Below the pieces are notes generated by a model that saw only the letters and a list, made by a program, of their open reading frames with translations, was not told the origin of the DNA and did no database searches. A stretch of 64,000 nt of DNA, taken from the NCBI GenBank assembly GCA_033584155.1, contig CP138355.1:3729826-3793825 (forward strand). Direction: 5' to 3'. The number at the start of each line of letters is the position of its first letter. The first letter of the stretch is position 1. Shown here piece by piece: positions 9,933 to 17,782 of the stretch. Origin of the DNA: Candidatus Electrothrix scaldis (lineage in GTDB: Bacteria > Desulfobacterota > Desulfobulbia > Desulfobulbales > Desulfobulbaceae). The position numbers and the translations under genes are program-made.

Positions 9933-9962
9933 TTGACACGTACGAAGTAACAAGGCTATGTT
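9933..9962 (+). promoter_or_regulatory. Sigma-70-like promoter before the riboswitch
   Basis: TTGACA (9933-9938) and TATGTT (9957-9962) lie 18 bp apart; CTATGT at 17 bp is the alternative. Transcription would start near 9968, so the riboswitch-like element lies wholly within the leader of the giant gene. Confidence 0.6.
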
Positions 9963-10012
9963 GCATTTACCATAACAAAACGGTAATGCTTATCTCCTGA
10001 GCAGGTGCCTTG

Positions 10013-10108
10013 ACTTTCCGGTCGGAACAGGAAAGTTGAAAAAGCCACAGCCGTCGTGAGACGGTGTCGGAAAGCCACGGATCTTTGTATAAGACAGCCG
10101 GGTTACCT
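10013..10108 (+). ncRNA. GEMM-I-like (cyclic di-GMP class I) riboswitch
   Basis: The leader contains a GNRA-capped hairpin, CCGTC-GTGA-GACGG, near 10051-10064. It is followed by GTCGGAAAGCCACGGATCT, then a second hairpin, then AGCCGGGTTACC ending near 10107. AAAGCCACGG and AGCCGGGTTACC are the hallmark conserved blocks of the class I c-di-GMP aptamer, and the tetraloop hairpin sits where the aptamer requires it. The segment 5' of the hairpin (AAGCCACAGCC) deviates from the commonest GGCAAACC form. A further hairpin (ACTTTCC/GGAAAGT) at 10013-10036 precedes the core. The assignment rests on motif recognition only. Confidence 0.68.
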
Positions 10109-10276
10109 TCTTTAACCTTTTGAGATCGGGAAGTATGTTATGCGTTTCACCCGAAAAATATCCGTTCAGGGTATACTCTTCTGTCGTATAGGCAGGTTGA
10201 TTTCCACTTGCCCCCGCTTCTATTCATTAAAACATTCTATACCGTTTTTTCCTCAATTCTAAATCAGGCAGAACAA

Positions 10277-13200
10277 ATGAACATTAAAAACATCTTATTG
10301 CTGCTGGTTATTTTTATAATTCTTTCATGCGAGATAGCCTACTCTGCAACATTAAGCAAACCTGTTCTGTACAATCCAGCAAATGCTGCTGAGGATATTT
10401 CTACAAGCTCTCAAAATTTTAGCTGGAGTTCTGTTACTGGTGCAACAGTATATCGAATTGTCGTTCTTGAAGATGGGCATTATGCAGATTTTGTCGACGA
10501 TAATGACGACAGTTATTGCAAAAACACAACTAGCTGTTTTACCGACAAGACCTCATCTACAAGTTATGCGGGTTTTACTCTCAAAGAGGGGACTAAATAT
10601 TTTTGGATGATTCGTGCTGGCTCTCCTGATATTCCTGCCAGCGAATTCAGCCCAGCCTATTTTACAACCGAAACACCTTCCGTGCCATTGAGTAAACCGG
10701 TTTTGTTGAGACCAGCAAGTAATGCTGTGAATGTTCCAGTGGATACTCAAAGCTTTGACTGGGGATCTGTGACAGGTGCAACAAAGTACAGAATTCTTGT
10801 ACTCGAATACGGTCATATCGAAGATATGGTCAGTGACGGCATGAAAAGTTCCTGCCGGGATAATACTACCTGTTTTACCGCCACGACTTCATCAAGCAGT
10901 TATTCCGGTTTCAACCTGAAAGAAGGTACAAAATATTATTGGCTTGTCTGGGCAGGTTCATCCGATGGTTCCGAGGACAGCGAACCGGGAGGGGATGTTT
11001 TTACAACCGAAACGTTGATCGTTGAAAATAAACCGCCTGTGTTGGTGAGTGGCAGTGCAACTCCCAGTTCGATAACATCAGGGGAGCAGGTCACTTTTGA
11101 GTCAATCTGGAATGACCCGGAAAATAAATATGTTGTTGATGTACAGGTGCGATTCAGAAAACAAGGAACAACATCCTGGCAGACCAAAAATTTGAGCAAG
11201 GTCAGTGGCTATACCTTTAGGGGAAGTTCTACGATTAGTGGGGATGAAGGCACTTATGAGTATCAATTTAGAGCCAGTGATGCAGACACATCTTCGGGTG
11301 CTCCAACGAATACAACATCTTGGTCTTCCTCATCGTATTTTGCTGTTACGGGAATAGGTCAGCTCAGCAACCCTATTCTATCCGACCCTATAAATGGTGC
11401 CACGGACGTTCCTACAAGCGTTCAAAATTTTCGCTGGAGTTCTGTTCCTGGTGCGACAGTATATCGAATTGTTGTTTTTGAAGACGGACATTATGCCGAT
11501 TTTGTTGATGCTGAGGGTAATAGCTATTGCAAAAATACGACTACCTGCTTTACCGATACGACCTCATCTGTAAATTACGCGGGGTTTGCTCTGAAAGAGG
11601 GAACTAAATATTTTTGGATGATCCGTGCAGGCTCCCCTGATATTCCAGCAAGCGAATTTAGTTCAGCCTACTTTACAACTGAGACGTTGAGTATTGAGAA
11701 CAAACCGCCTGTGCTGGTGAGTGGAAGTGCAACCCCTAGTTCGATAACTTCAGGAGAGCAGATTACCTTTGAGTCAACTTGGAATGACCCAGAGAACAAA
11801 TATGTTGTTGATGTACAAGTGCAGTACAGAAAACAAGGAACAACATCTTGGCAGATTCAAGACTTAAGCAAGGTCAGTGGCTATACCTTTAGAGGAAGCA
11901 CTACAATCAGCGGCTCTGAAGGTACCTACGAATATCAATTCAGGGCCAGTGATGCGGATACTCTTTCTGGGGCACGAACCAATACGACGGCATGGTCTTC
12001 ATCATCGTATTTTACAGTTACGGTGGGAGGCGCATTAAGTAAGCCTGTAATTGTCAATCCTGCAAACAAGGCATTAGATGTCCCTGTCACGGGTCAAAAC
12101 TTTGACTGGGAACCTGTATCAGGTGCAGCAAAATACAGAATTCTTGTGCTCGAATATGGGCAGTACGGTGATATGGTCAATGCAGGCATGAACAGTTCTT
12201 GTACAAATGATACGACATGTTTTACAGCGACGACCTCATCAAGTGGTTATTCGGGATTTACCCTGAAAGAAGGTACAAAGTATTACTGGGTTATCTGGGC
12301 AGGTTCATCTGATGGACTTGAGGACAGTGAACCTGGAGGGGGTATTTTCACAACCGGGACATCAGTCGTCGATAACAAGCCGCCTGTGTTTTTAAGCGGC
12401 AGCGCAACTCCGGCTTCAATAGCATCCGGTGAGCAGATTACTTTTGAATCAAATTGGAATGACCCTGAGAATAAATATGTTGTTGACGTACAGGTGCAGT
12501 ACAGAAAACAAGGAACAACATCTTGGCAGATTCAAGACTTAAGCAAGGTTAGTGGCTATACCTTTAGAGGAAGCACTACAATCAGCGGCTCTGAAGGTAC
12601 CTACGAATATCAATTCAGGGCCAGTGATGCGGATACTCTTTCTGGGGCACGAACCAATACGACGGCATGGTCTTCATCATCGTATTTTACAGTTACGGTG
12701 GGAGGCGCATTAAGTAAGCCTGTAATTGTCAATCCTGCAAACAAGGCATTAGATGTCCCTGTCACGGGTCAAAACTTTGACTGGGAACCTGTATCAGGTG
12801 CAGCAAAATACAGAATTCTTGTGCTCGAATATGGGCAATATGCTGATATGGTAAATGACGGGATGAATAGCTATTGTAAAAATAGTGAAACCTGTTTTAC
12901 AGCCATCACAACATCAAGTTCTTATTCCGGTTTTAATCTGAAAGAAGGTACCCAGTATTATTGGCTTGTCTGGGCTGGTTCATCTGATGATTCTGAAGCT
13001 AGCGAACCCGGAGGGGGGATTTTCACAACAGAGAAAGGACGGGTTACGATGAATGTAACGACATCTGATCCAGCGAGAGGTGTTGTAACCAGTACACCTG
13101 GTGAAATTGATTGTGGAATAAATTGCTCCAGCTCCTATCCTGTTGGTACCAACGTGACGTTAACGGCAACTGCTCGTGCTGGTTCTGTTTTTCGTGGTTG

Positions 13201-16200
13201 GAGTGGGGACTGTTCGGGAACAGAAGAAACTTGCGAAGTTACAATGGATAGCACCAAGAATGTTTCTGCTATTTTCGCTGATAAGAATGCTAAATCGTTT
13301 AAGATTTGGATAGATTTTAACGGAAATCGTGACTATGACCTTGGAGAGGAACTAAAAGACACTACAGTTAGTTATCGAGTTATACAGGGAAAAGAGAAGG
13401 ATGTGGATACTGATCTTCAAGAAGAGAATGACCCGGATGAAGAAAAAACGGAAGATATCATCCTGCAAGAGATTATGACGGATGATCAGGGCGTAATAGA
13501 TTTGCTTGTTAATGATACGAATACCATCTATATAGAAAAGTTATACGGAACAAAGGATGTGGCGAATAATCGAATTAATGGTCTCTCTGACAGTGAGAAT
13601 CCATTTAGCGAGGTAGATAATATCCGTTATGAATTTGTCATGGCAAGCGATATTAGGAAGGATAAGAAAAATAAGGAGAAAGATGCTGAGGTTGAATATC
13701 CCTCCGTTGTTGGTGATTATCATAATTTTCCAGGAGAATACAAAACATTCGACAGTGAGTTGGAGAAAGATTCTGAAGGAAATATACTGATCAAGCTTGG
13801 GCATCCTAAATGGCAGTGGAACCTAGTAATGTGTTTCCAGGATCCACACACGGAGAAATTTTATGCCAAGGTAAAGGAAGCCCTTTGGAATGACAACAAG
13901 GTGCAAACTGCTACTCCAAGTTTCACTTATCGAGATTATATTGACTATCTATATAATTATACAGACGGTTATTCCCTGATAAAAAATGTTATTCTGGTAA
14001 AAAGAGGTTACGAAGAATTAGGAAGTGTATGGGACAATCTTTGTGATATCAGAGTGACAAGCACAGCATGGTATCGTGCTAATACACGAGGAAATGTAGA
14101 CAATGGATATATTACTATGGGCAGAACTGACGGGGACAGGACATTGTTTAATGAGCCTGAAGAGCAAGAAGAAGATCGCTCGCGTTGGTACAAAACCCTT
14201 GCACATGAATCTGGGCATTATTTATTTTCTTTTAAAGATGAATATATCAGCCAGCGCGGATACATAAATTTTTTAGAGGGGGGGAGCGAGGCTTGGCCGT
14301 ATCGGTGGGATAATGATGGAGATGCGGGAGAGCCGAATCAGTATCCAACCACCTATGGTGTCATGCAAGCACAAGGGAAATATCATGAATTAAGCGATTC
14401 TTCTGATTATCTTAGTGATTCAGGAGTAAAAGGTTGTTGGCTGAAATCAGAATTTACTGAATCGGAATACCATGTTGTTAAAGATATTCTTTACGATTTT
14501 GCAGGAATTTCAAGAGGGATATCAGATAAGAGGTCTCTTTATTATCTTTACAGATTTGATAATGATGAAGGAGAAAAATTTCTCAATAATACTAGAGATA
14601 AAGATAATGATGAGGTGATAAAAAAAATAAAAAACCATTTTCAATATCAAAAAAGAGCATCAGCGCAATATTATGAACACGAAAAAAGCACTTGGTGGAC
14701 TTTTAAGCAACAGTTTGATGAAATTATGACCAACCCGTTGCTTTATGCTTATTTTTTGAACAATAAAAATATACAGGTTGAAAAAAATATAGTTGCAACA
14801 ATTAAAAAGGCTATAATTAATTATCTTGTTGTCCCGCCTAATAAACTGATGCAAGAAAAGGTGTTGACGGGGAAAGTATACGAAGATTTAACAGGGGTTA
14901 AAAAGATATATAGGGATAACCCTGAGTTGGAAGGTGAGCCATGCGAATATTCCTTTGAAAATGGAAATAAGGTAGAACAGAATAAACGCCCCGGCCCTGA
15001 AACTACGATAAATAATAAAGTTAAAATTATTGATTGGTTTCCTAAGAACAGCCAAGAGGAGAACATTCTTTCCGCAACAGTTCAGGTTTGCGAAGAAATA
15101 GAAAATGACTGTAAGTGGTTCAGGGATGAAAAGGTTACATATAAAGGTAGGCCGATTTCTATTACATTGACTACTATGAAAAAAAGTTCAGGAGGATATA
15201 ATCTTGTACGAGAAACTGATCAAGGGATAACAAAGAAAGATGATAAAGGAAAACTCCTTATCACTAGTTTTATAGAACAACCGGATAATATGAAACAATG
15301 GCTTGCTATTGGCTATGATACCGATGATCTTTCAAAAACCGCAGAATGCCTTGTTGATCCCAGCGACATAGAAGATGGAAAGATTCTAATAAATATTTCC
15401 CAACTGACGGATGAGCTTCCAAAACTCAGTAGCGAGGGAAAAACAACCAAGCCCTGTGATGCAGAGGCTCAACAAGAAGAGTTTTTTCCTCAATATATAT
15501 CCTCTAATTCCTCCTTTTATGCAACTGTCCAACAGAAAAGCAATAAGAAAGAAATTAGACTGGAAGGGATTATTGTCAATATAAAACCTGATGCCTTTGA
15601 TGAGGGAAAAATGCAGGTAACCTTCTTGGCAAAAGAGAATTTCTTTGCTCAGGAATACCAAGGAAGCGCAGTCTTGAGACAGCAGGGCTTTGAAGGCTAT
15701 ATTGACTTCTCCTTGCAGGGCAATAGTTATATCGGCACGTCTGACTATGTGTCCGATACAGGAATTGCAGATGTCGGGTTTCAAACAGATTTAGGAATCA
15801 TGCGAGCATATAACCGATTTGAAATTTTCAGTTCAGACGCAGGCTATGCTTCCGGTTTTCCTTCACCGGGCGGCGAATTACAGATGTTCGCTCCAGAAAG
15901 TAGTTTTGATGGCTCAGGAAAATTTATCATCACAAACAGTTCCATTACCGCACCTCGCAACGGCAACTTAAATCAAGTCGGCAATGTATGGAGCTTTGGC
16001 TTTGCCGATAGCATCACCGCAGTATACAACGTTTCCTTCAATATCCTCATCAACGGCAGAACCCACGGATTGGACGCAACCAAGCTGAACCTGTACGGCT
16101 GGAATCAGGAAGAAGGGGAATGGGAGGAAGTTCCCGGCGGGAGTAATAACCTCAAAGAATTCAACATCAGCCTTGAAACCCTGAAATATGACTCTTACGC

Positions 16201-17641
16201 CCTATTCGCCCCGGCCAGCAAAGATACAGAAGCACCGGAAGCTGTAAGTAATTTGCAGGCCCGGACAAGTTCCGGTTGGGGCGTGGAGTTGGAATGGACA
16301 GCACCCAAGGATAATCGTGATGTATATGTCTATGATATACGGTTCAATACTGTGCCAATCACTGAAGATAATTGGAATAACAGTATCCCGATAGGTTATT
16401 GGTCAACACCGAAACCCGGTAAGCCGGGCAGTGCGGAGCATACCTTTGTCAATATGCCGGACCCGGGTGTAACGTATTATTTTGCCATCCGTTCAGCGGA
16501 TGCCGCAGCCAATTGGTCAGACTTGACAGCTTTGTCTTCTCCGGTGGAATCAGGAACGCCGGGTGAACCACCGACCCAGGAAGAGATTGACTGCGCCACC
16601 ACAGTCCCGGATGACTTCACCAGCATCCAGGATGCAGCCAACTACATCGCCATCACCGATTTCGGCGGCAATGTCTGCGTCCAGCCCGGAACCTACGTGG
16701 AACCCAAACTGAAGTTGAAAGACGGCGTGTATTTGGTCGCCCTGTCCGATGACCCGGCAGCAACCATCATCGACGGCAACGGCAAGAACGATGTGATTAC
16801 CTTCCAGGGCGTGCGGGTCGGCGGGGTGATCGGTTTCACCCTGCGCAACAGCAAGAAAAACGGCAATGCCGCAGCCATTAATATCACCGGTGCCAAGCAG
16901 ATGCCCCTGATCGCCCGTAACATCATCACGGACAACCGACATGGTGTCCGCCTACAAGGCAATGTCATGCCCCTGCTAATCAACAACACCATTGCTGACA
17001 ACAGCGGCGACGGTATCGCGGCTGGCGGCAACAGCCCGGCCACGGTCATCAATAATATCGTGGTCAGCAATAAGGGTGACGGTATTATCAGCAAAGGCAA
17101 GGCCATTGATGAGCTGGCCCGTAATGACGTATACGACAATAAAGGCGGTGATTATGTCAAAATTGAGGCAGGGGAAGGTGGTATCTCCCTTGATCCGCGT
17201 TTTACGGACGGCTACCAGCTTGCCAGCGATTCACCCTGCATCGGCACCGGCCTGACGCTGGATGGCGAGCCTGTGGATATGGGGGCCTACGGGAACAGCA
17301 GCGTCCGCCTGATTAATGAAACGGCCACCGCCATGTTTACGGATACAGACGCGGACGGTATTGACGATCACTGGGAACAGCTCTTCTTCGGTAACCTCAG
17401 CACAGCCAGCAGCACCAGCGATTATGACCAGGACGGTTATAGTGATCTCCAGGAATATCAGAACAACCTGCATCACGCTGTTGACCCCGATGGAACTGCC
17501 TTTGATCTGAGTGCGGTCAATACGCCAGACGGGGAAGGATATGAGGTCATAGAAGAGGAAAGTGCGATCAACAAGGCCTTGAGCGTGATTCTCAATTTTC
17601 TCCTCAGCAGAAGGGAGGAACCAGAGACGGTTCAGCCGTAG
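10277..17641 (+). CDS. Giant secreted modular protein: Fn3-like repeats, zinc-protease motif, beta-helix
   Basis: A 2454-residue exported protein. The N-terminus MNIKNILLLLVIFIILSC…AYSA is a signal peptide, possibly lipoprotein-type. Five Fn3-like modules follow (start LSKPV…NPAN, end KEGTKYFW…FTTE). They alternate with three modules beginning NKPPVLVSGSATPSSI and ending in a YEYQFRASDAD segment. Next comes a divergent InlB/Bacterial-repeat module (RGWSGDCSG). HESGHYLFSFKDEY near residue 1310 is a zincin-type HExxH with a downstream DE. Later there is an Fn3 domain, then a right-handed beta-helix (about residues 2110-2330), and finally a calcium-loop-like DTDADGIDDHWE segment near 2355. It is probably a surface adhesin or protease. 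The c-di-GMP riboswitch-like leader suggests biofilm-linked control. Two 344-bp stretches inside the repeats are almost identical. Confidence 0.8.
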   Translation: MNIKNILLLLVIFIILSCEIAYSATLSKPVLYNPANAAEDISTSSQNFSWSSVTGATVYRIVVLEDGHYADFVDDNDDSYCKNTTSCFTDKTSSTSYAGFTLKEGTKYFWMIRAGSPDIPASEFSPAYFTTETPSVPLSKPVLLRPASNAVNVPVDTQSFDWGSVTGATKYRILVLEYGHIEDMVSDGMKSSCRDNTTCFTATTSSSSYSGFNLKEGTKYYWLVWAGSSDGSEDSEPGGDVFTTETLIVENKPPVLVSGSATPSSITSGEQVTFESIWNDPENKYVVDVQVRFRKQGTTSWQTKNLSKVSGYTFRGSSTISGDEGTYEYQFRASDADTSSGAPTNTTSWSSSSYFAVTGIGQLSNPILSDPINGATDVPTSVQNFRWSSVPGATVYRIVVFEDGHYADFVDAEGNSYCKNTTTCFTDTTSSVNYAGFALKEGTKYFWMIRAGSPDIPASEFSSAYFTTETLSIENKPPVLVSGSATPSSITSGEQITFESTWNDPENKYVVDVQVQYRKQGTTSWQIQDLSKVSGYTFRGSTTISGSEGTYEYQFRASDADTLSGARTNTTAWSSSSYFTVTVGGALSKPVIVNPANKALDVPVTGQNFDWEPVSGAAKYRILVLEYGQYGDMVNAGMNSSCTNDTTCFTATTSSSGYSGFTLKEGTKYYWVIWAGSSDGLEDSEPGGGIFTTGTSVVDNKPPVFLSGSATPASIASGEQITFESNWNDPENKYVVDVQVQYRKQGTTSWQIQDLSKVSGYTFRGSTTISGSEGTYEYQFRASDADTLSGARTNTTAWSSSSYFTVTVGGALSKPVIVNPANKALDVPVTGQNFDWEPVSGAAKYRILVLEYGQYADMVNDGMNSYCKNSETCFTAITTSSSYSGFNLKEGTQYYWLVWAGSSDDSEASEPGGGIFTTEKGRVTMNVTTSDPARGVVTSTPGEIDCGINCSSSYPVGTNVTLTATARAGSVFRGWSGDCSGTEETCEVTMDSTKNVSAIFADKNAKSFKIWIDFNGNRDYDLGEELKDTTVSYRVIQGKEKDVDTDLQEENDPDEEKTEDIILQEIMTDDQGVIDLLVNDTNTIYIEKLYGTKDVANNRINGLSDSENPFSEVDNIRYEFVMASDIRKDKKNKEKDAEVEYPSVVGDYHNFPGEYKTFDSELEKDSEGNILIKLGHPKWQWNLVMCFQDPHTEKFYAKVKEALWNDNKVQTATPSFTYRDYIDYLYNYTDGYSLIKNVILVKRGYEELGSVWDNLCDIRVTSTAWYRANTRGNVDNGYITMGRTDGDRTLFNEPEEQEEDRSRWYKTLAHESGHYLFSFKDEYISQRGYINFLEGGSEAWPYRWDNDGDAGEPNQYPTTYGVMQAQGKYHELSDSSDYLSDSGVKGCWLKSEFTESEYHVVKDILYDFAGISRGISDKRSLYYLYRFDNDEGEKFLNNTRDKDNDEVIKKIKNHFQYQKRASAQYYEHEKSTWWTFKQQFDEIMTNPLLYAYFLNNKNIQVEKNIVATIKKAIINYLVVPPNKLMQEKVLTGKVYEDLTGVKKIYRDNPELEGEPCEYSFENGNKVEQNKRPGPETTINNKVKIIDWFPKNSQEENILSATVQVCEEIENDCKWFRDEKVTYKGRPISITLTTMKKSSGGYNLVRETDQGITKKDDKGKLLITSFIEQPDNMKQWLAIGYDTDDLSKTAECLVDPSDIEDGKILINISQLTDELPKLSSEGKTTKPCDAEAQQEEFFPQYISSNSSFYATVQQKSNKKEIRLEGIIVNIKPDAFDEGKMQVTFLAKENFFAQEYQGSAVLRQQGFEGYIDFSLQGNSYIGTSDYVSDTGIADVGFQTDLGIMRAYNRFEIFSSDAGYASGFPSPGGELQMFAPESSFDGSGKFIITNSSITAPRNGNLNQVGNVWSFGFADSITAVYNVSFNILINGRTHGLDATKLNLYGWNQEEGEWEEVPGGSNNLKEFNISLETLKYDSYALFAPASKDTEAPEAVSNLQARTSSGWGVELEWTAPKDNRDVYVYDIRFNTVPITEDNWNNSIPIGYWSTPKPGKPGSAEHTFVNMPDPGVTYYFAIRSADAAANWSDLTALSSPVESGTPGEPPTQEEIDCATTVPDDFTSIQDAANYIAITDFGGNVCVQPGTYVEPKLKLKDGVYLVALSDDPAATIIDGNGKNDVITFQGVRVGGVIGFTLRNSKKNGNAAAINITGAKQMPLIARNIITDNRHGVRLQGNVMPLLINNTIADNSGDGIAAGGNSPATVINNIVVSNKGDGIISKGKAIDELARNDVYDNKGGDYVKIEAGEGGISLDPRFTDGYQLASDSPCIGTGLTLDGEPVDMGAYGNSSVRLINETATAMFTDTDADGIDDHWEQLFFGNLSTASSTSDYDQDGYSDLQEYQNNLHHAVDPDGTAFDLSAVNTPDGEGYEVIEEESAINKALSVILNFLLSRREEPETVQP
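11819..12162 (+). repeat. 344-bp intragenic direct repeat, copy A
   Basis: This stretch is nearly base-for-base identical to 12494-12837. The only difference I can see is GGTCAGTGG versus GGTTAGTGG. The copies lie 675 bp (225 codons) apart and keep frame. The other modules of the protein are much more diverged, so this pair is recent or kept alike by gene conversion. Confidence 0.85.
12494..12837 (+). repeat. 344-bp intragenic direct repeat, copy B
   Basis: Partner of 11819-12162. Identity stops on the right at CAGTACGG versus CAATATGC and on the left at ATGTACAAG versus ACGTACAGG. Such a repeat could expand or contract by slippage or recombination, changing the number of Fn3-like modules. 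Confidence 0.85.
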
Positions 17642-17675: not shown

Positions 17676-17782
17676 GCCCACCGTTAAAACGGTGGGCTAT
17701 TCTCAATCGTCCTTCCAGGACGGTCAGGGAAACAGCGTCCCGTAGGGACTGCCGAAAATAGCCCTGTGTTTCAACGCCGGGC
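17676..17782. repeat. Paired-hairpin repeat units, tail to tail
   Basis: Unit 1 faces right: hairpin GCCCACCG-TTAAAA-CGGTGGGC (17676-17697), then CTATT, a spacer, and hairpin CGTCC…GGACG (17708-17722). Unit 2 faces left: read on the minus strand it is CCCGGCGTTGAAACACAGGG, then CTATTTTC, then hairpin GTCCC-TAC-GGGAC (17737-17749). The same two-hairpin layout recurs at 20176-20235 and 41012-41109. The first hairpin may also terminate the giant gene. Confidence 0.7.

Follow-up and report, generated by a model that had tools for sequence, protein, structure and literature searches.

The plus strand between positions 9933 and 17641 of the window (the whole stretch of DNA analysed, 64 kb long) carries a sigma-70-type promoter, a pyrimidine strand, a c-di-GMP-I (GEMM-I) riboswitch aptamer, a Shine-Dalgarno (SD) region, a leader open reading frame (ORF) of 40 codons and a giant gene. 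The promoter (9933–9962) comprises TTGACA at 9933 and TATGTT ending at 9962, separated by an 18-nt spacer, with 10 of 12 matches. It is weak taken alone, the motif scan finding 2 sites where 1.1 are expected; in 14 aligned leaders, the −35 position reads TTGACA in 11 and TTGATA in one, is absent in one and is cut off by the fetched stretch in one. A preliminary description of this DNA had placed a promoter ahead of the aptamer, as found here, and did not contain the upstream strand (10013–10023), the SD core (10128–10133) or the leader ORF (10140–10262, with its ATG at 10140), which the SD on the aptamer side opens.

The layout recurs across the genus in a fixed order: promoter, pyrimidine strand CUUUCYGGU, loop, CCRGAAAGUUGAUAA, aptamer, RCUUUU, about 20 nt, ACCRGGAGG and start codon, with a median of 29 nt from aptamer to start in the 102 loci that have an SD-led ORF. 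In the window, the giant gene (10277–17641, 2454 aa) starts 14 nt past the stop of the leader ORF. Its product has its own hydrophobic N-terminus, followed by Ig/InlB-like repeats and a beta-helix (Pfam matches are Ig/InlB-like, beta-helix and NosD-like), and its translation contains HESGH, which may be a protease-type motif. An adhesin or other surface structure, the kind of product that the preliminary description had in mind, was considered and is not retained as an identification.

The aptamer and its expected ligand

The Rfam c-di-GMP-I model RF01051 matches 10034–10110 on the plus strand over its full length (model positions 1–87) with 56.7 bits against a gathering score of 35 (E 2e-08), the sole riboswitch match over its cut-off in the window. 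Covariance scoring thus bears out the earlier proposal of a GEMM-I aptamer in this leader. The features on which that proposal drew could also be located, namely the GNRA-capped hairpin GCCGUC-GUGA-GACGGU at 10050–10065, with its GUGA loop at 10056–10059, and the two conserved blocks AAAGCCACGG (10071–10080) and AGCCGGGTTACC (10096–10107); the GNRA receptor region is covered only as a portion of the model match. When aligned with the other aptamers of the genus (113 in all), the window copy keeps G at the position of G20 of the Vc2 aptamer (10044), A at 47 (10071) and C at 92 (10106), where we take the last two to be A47 and C92 in Vc2 numbering.

The preliminary description had also remarked on an unusual 5′ block and raised the possibility of a variant aptamer. 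The oddity is a C21–G46 pair replacing the consensus G–C; it is carried by 113 of 113 genus aptamers and is also found in other genera. Because G20, A47 and C92 are retained, c-di-GMP is the expected ligand, and we reject the idea of another ligand for the window copy. The fold is common to c-AMP-GMP (GEMM-Ib) riboswitches, whose aptamers are marked by A at position 20 (excerpts of PMC9481103), whereas 10044 is G. In excerpts of PMC9262584, position 20 is treated as a selectivity factor and not as a hard filter, so that the ligand of the window aptamer is a prediction. The riboswitch is a genuine c-di-GMP-I, ordinary as an aptamer: it shares with the family its score, its GNRA loop and its three contact residues, and differs in the C21–G46 pair and in an anti-SD strand lying 5′ of the aptamer.

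Departures at the contact residues occur elsewhere in the genus. The A20 signature of c-AMP-GMP aptamers is seen in 4 of 113, one of them in the same genome (L011, C1:1800568) and three at relatives' loci. U replaces C92 in seven of 113 (L015 at C1:3358177 in this genome and six relatives' loci), and the ligand preference of these aptamers may differ, judging from this residue. The genome also holds 17 GGDEF domain matches, 13 with a readable motif; one of the 13 (L203, C1:879900–880367) has Thr for Asp at the base-specificity position with GGDEF kept, a substitution described for Hypr enzymes (excerpts of PMC6456294).

Alternative pairings around the aptamer

Upstream of the aptamer, the pyrimidine strand ACUUUCCGGUC (10013–10023, plus strand; hereafter strand A) is complementary to two partners. 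One is GGAAAGU (10030–10036), with which strand A, as the 5′ arm, forms a hairpin, P0 (−9.6 kcal/mol; 5 of 200 shuffles equally good). The other is the SD region GAUCGGGAAGU (10124–10134), with its core GGGAAG at 10128–10133, defined by pairing tests and folding: here 11 contiguous pairs form at −16.9 kcal/mol, a strength equalled by 1 of 5000 strand shuffles and 3 of 9140 14-mers sampled from the window. Within the 3′ arm of P0, AAAG (10032–10035) doubles as the 5′ arm of the aptamer's P1 helix, whose 3′ arm is CUUU (10110–10113).

Comparison across loci supports both alternatives. We asked how strongly each strand A pairs with the SD of its own locus and with those of other loci, using 103 loci in 43 similarity clusters, with the strand picked by a hand-made pattern; 10 of the 113 aptamers, six tandem copies linked to a type VI secretion system (T6SS) and four without the strand motif, were dropped. 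With one random member per cluster, own partners averaged −11.2 against −9.8 for the partners of other loci, z ranged from −3.5 to −4.8 in 50 draws, and in a fixed set 1 of 20,000 permutations was equally low; 32 of the 103 loci do not exceed their mean mispair. P0 passed the same test (z about −4), whereas P1 was weak (about −1.8). Many helix positions show at least three kinds of standard pair among the clusters, the pairs being those chosen by the folding program. Control pairings gave no own-partner preference, whether between the P0 3′ arm and the SD (z −0.5), between the strand and a coding stretch (+0.3), or with stretches 64–80 nt upstream (−0.2) or in the aptamer (−0.2); one of these controls used a neighbouring stretch in 102 loci. 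A translational platform with its strand 5′ of the aptamer is well supported, and uncommon. On sequence comparison, the platform would lie at 10013–10036 and 10110–10134, to which the comparative data point, and not near 10190.

The latter site, a GGCAGGT...ACTTGCC hairpin, had been put forward as part of the expression platform. The hairpin does exist (−9.6 kcal/mol, z −1.8), and the role assigned to it finds no backing in the comparative evidence, which favours the two stretches above. It lies within the short ORF and is probably not the switch.

Predicted direction of the switch and its possible reach to the giant gene

Folding calculations address what P1 does to the SD. When P1 was forced, opening the SD became costlier in 70 of the 84 loci that could be evaluated (19 of the 103 could not), changed in cost by no more than 0.1 in seven and became cheaper in seven (median +2.7 kcal/mol); as P1 and P0 have a strand in common, the outcome is in part built into the test. 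Counted by cluster, the cost rose in 29 of 31 and fell in one. When strand A was kept unpaired, the rise was left in three of 84 loci, and in the window, blocking strand A took the SD opening cost from 8.1 to 0.7 kcal/mol. That P1 raises the cost, and that this effect is lost with strand A blocked, leads to the prediction that c-di-GMP turns translation off. At equilibrium, the ligand-free window leader is 99% in the SD-masked form in these calculations, so that the open state must be kinetic, resting on P0 forming first during transcription.

The computations support the identity of the aptamer, both alternative pairings through their preference for own partners, and a predicted SD masking that depends on strand A. 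We consider it probable that this c-di-GMP-I riboswitch turns translation off, through an anti-SD strand that lies 5′ of the aptamer. We infer ligand binding, an order of folding, the OFF direction and coupling to the giant gene, which would combine as follows. The polymerase would make strand A and then GGAAAGU, allowing P0 to form. At low c-di-GMP, P0 would persist and leave the SD free, ribosomes would start at the ATG at 10140, and the giant gene, 14 nt past the leader stop, would be translated by coupling. Once bound to c-di-GMP, the aptamer would stabilise P1, which removes AAAG from P0; the freed strand A would then pair with the SD over 11 bp, closing an outer helix around the aptamer and stopping initiation. 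Excerpts of PMC9262584 present the Vibrio cholerae riboswitch Vc2 as a translational OFF switch under the control of P1; the scheme would resemble it in masking of the ribosome-binding site, predicted here, and in P1 as the controlling helix.

How far the switch reaches downstream depends on what follows the SD. In the syntenic loci of three relatives (G003, G007 and G005), the ORF at the aptamer-proximal start is a giant secreted protein: a start 28 nt after the aptamer opens giant ORFs of 1702, 1889 and 1871 aa directly. The SD-led ORF has at least 100 aa, or runs off the fetched stretch, in 48 of the 102 loci that have one; in the other 54 it is shorter, and in 71 of the 102 it has a hydrophobic N-terminal stretch. 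At L097, a paralogous locus, a 1229-aa gene begins within the leader ORF, the overlap being 4 nt. A conserved leader peptide was considered and rejected: ten leader ORFs of the window's kind are alike at the N-terminus, but pN/pS over the first 25 codons is 0.77, 0.79 and 0.75 in the three frames, and since these values are alike the resemblance reflects common DNA descent. The preliminary description had the riboswitch controlling the giant gene. The aptamer does precede the gene of a giant protein whose N-terminus is hydrophobic, while the control is plausible and indirect, because the SD opens the 40-codon ORF.

The same pairings could in principle serve ON logic, in which c-di-GMP gives an accessible SD, for example if the outer helix is the first to form and comes under strain from the bound aptamer. 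Masking of the window SD at equilibrium without ligand would then mark the ligand-free state as the OFF state, and the seven of 84 loci in which forced P1 lowers the SD cost fit as well; with the cost raised in 70 of 84, and P1 taking away the competitor of the anti-SD strand, we regard this logic as improbable. Far more remote is a platform that ends transcription, the 10190 hairpin serving as its terminator or antiterminator. That hairpin is present at −9.6 kcal/mol, and outside the genus, 15 of the 29 aptamers in the sample reuse the aptamer 3′ end in a terminator; but it has no U-run, 12 of 200 shuffles fold equally well, one weak terminator-like site was found where 0.7 are expected, and the terminator type occurs in just six of 113 genus aptamers, with the window copy not among them. 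A terminator stem that reuses the aptamer 3′ end and is followed by a U-run was not found at the window copy, and we reject this platform for it.

Another reading, which we think unlikely, though less so than either of these, is that the riboswitch acts only or mainly on the 40-codon ORF, the giant gene being translated on its own with a weak or Rho-polarity effect, and that the leader is the remnant of an earlier gene. The break in the alignment with G005 fits such a history, as identity of 88–95% stops at 10113, where the aptamer ends, and returns from 16592, within the giant gene; so do the lack of coding constraint on leader ORFs, the hydrophobic N-terminus that the giant gene has of its own, and the roughly 1.5 kb with other ORFs that separates the leader from a relative of the giant gene in G001. 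Against it, the gap here is 14 nt and seven more loci have their next ORF (at least 100 aa) starting at or before the leader stop, as expected of translational coupling (gaps were counted for following ORFs of at least 100 aa within −40 to +60 nt only), and the promoter scan found no promoter-like plus-strand site between the aptamer and 10277. We retain the translational OFF switch, with a plausible, indirect hold on the giant gene.

The region behind the aptamer is variable in its own right. Between the flanks that are 88–95% identical to G005, the segment 10114–16591 holds the Ig/InlB-like giant gene in the window and, at the corresponding locus (L094), a gene for a protein with 20 RHS-repeat stretches; the sequences would fit gene exchange behind the riboswitch. 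In G005, a separate ORF corresponds at 94% to residues 2100–2454 of the window's giant protein. A protein search of genome_contigs, a collection that may not include the genome of the window, returned one distant locus, from Verrucomicrobia, at 38% over residues 2356–2420. At L092, L093 and L094, an ORF of 172–176 aa starting MQYRRVYVPGGTYFF lies between the giant gene and the C-terminal ORF; it presumably resembles REP-associated transposases. Directly after the window's giant gene, a match to the small RNA family Acido-Lenti-1 occupies 17677–17722 (45.1 bits, cut-off 37). The genome holds 45 such matches, 14 over the cut-off, and several form inverted pairs 60–70 nt apart which, from their arrangement, look like a REP-type repeat.

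Spread of the platform and its meaning

The genome containing the window, a single contig of 5,089,909 bases, carries 19 c-di-GMP-I aptamers over the cut-off. Candidatus Electrothrix scaldis is described as a cable bacterium with a closed genome of 5.09 Mbp (excerpts of PMC10926707). Seven relatives of the same genus have 9 to 27 RF01051 matches each, 127 in total, of which 94 were fetched (all those of G001, G002, G003, G005 and G007, 3 of 27 in G004 and 0 of 9 in G006); together with the 19 these make up the 113 genus aptamers. The sample from outside the genus comprises 29 of 66 listed matches, leaving out two near contig ends (L055 and L061) and counting L063 as the same place as one of L181.

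By a loose criterion, an upstream strand whose pairing to the SD window is −11 kcal/mol or stronger, 83 of 113 aptamers inside the genus and 5 of 29 outside it have the arrangement. Two of the five are in G016, another genus of the same family, with a layout resembling that of the window, and the others are in G011, G030 and G008, suggesting that the platform may extend beyond this lineage and may not be confined to it.

Terminator-type GEMM-I riboswitches, known here from related genera and from T6SS-linked tandem copies, share the aptamer family with the window copy and are present in its own genome and bacterial family; they differ in that a terminator reuses the aptamer 3′ end, at 15 of 29 loci outside the genus and 6 of 113 inside, five of these in tandem arrays. 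In the genome of the window, three aptamers stand in tandem 133 nt apart (L004, L002 and L001, C1:4046050–4046395), each with such a terminator, as have two of three by the cut-off in G005 (L119). Downstream of them come an Hcp gene (PF05638, 121 bits) and an ORF that gives a phage-hub match (PF05954) as in VgrG. From their terminator logic, these copies are predicted to be ON with c-di-GMP.

In a literature search that left most subscription journals outside its reach, we found nothing pairing cable bacteria, or Desulfobulb- taxa, with a c-di-GMP riboswitch, and nothing on a riboswitch anti-SD sequence upstream of the aptamer; an earlier description is possible. Within the text that could be searched, c-di-GMP does occur in papers on cable bacteria, with one to three uses each, and c-di-GMP riboswitch and anti-Shine-Dalgarno co-occur in a transcriptome paper. 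We tentatively propose, with slightly more doubt than conviction, that this may be a new GEMM-I architecture, in which an anti-SD strand before the aptamer pairs either with the SD or within an upstream hairpin, and the ligand acts by capturing the arm that P0 and P1 have in common. Having spread to many loci in each genome of a single genus of probable cable bacteria, it would place mostly exported proteins in a regulon repressed by c-di-GMP, with a hot spot of giant-gene exchange and a side branch, the A20 aptamers and the Thr-bearing GGDEF protein, that may answer cGAMP.

For a riboswitch that one genus uses 9 to 27 times per genome, the analysis offers a concrete, covariation-supported mechanism, from which a set of mostly exported proteins, including giant ones, is predicted to be turned off when c-di-GMP is high. 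The presence in one genome of the translational platform described here and of terminator-type, T6SS-linked copies would allow one aptamer wired to opposite outputs to be compared. If the genus is Ca. Electrothrix, the riboswitch would offer a way into the second-messenger control of electrogenic filaments.
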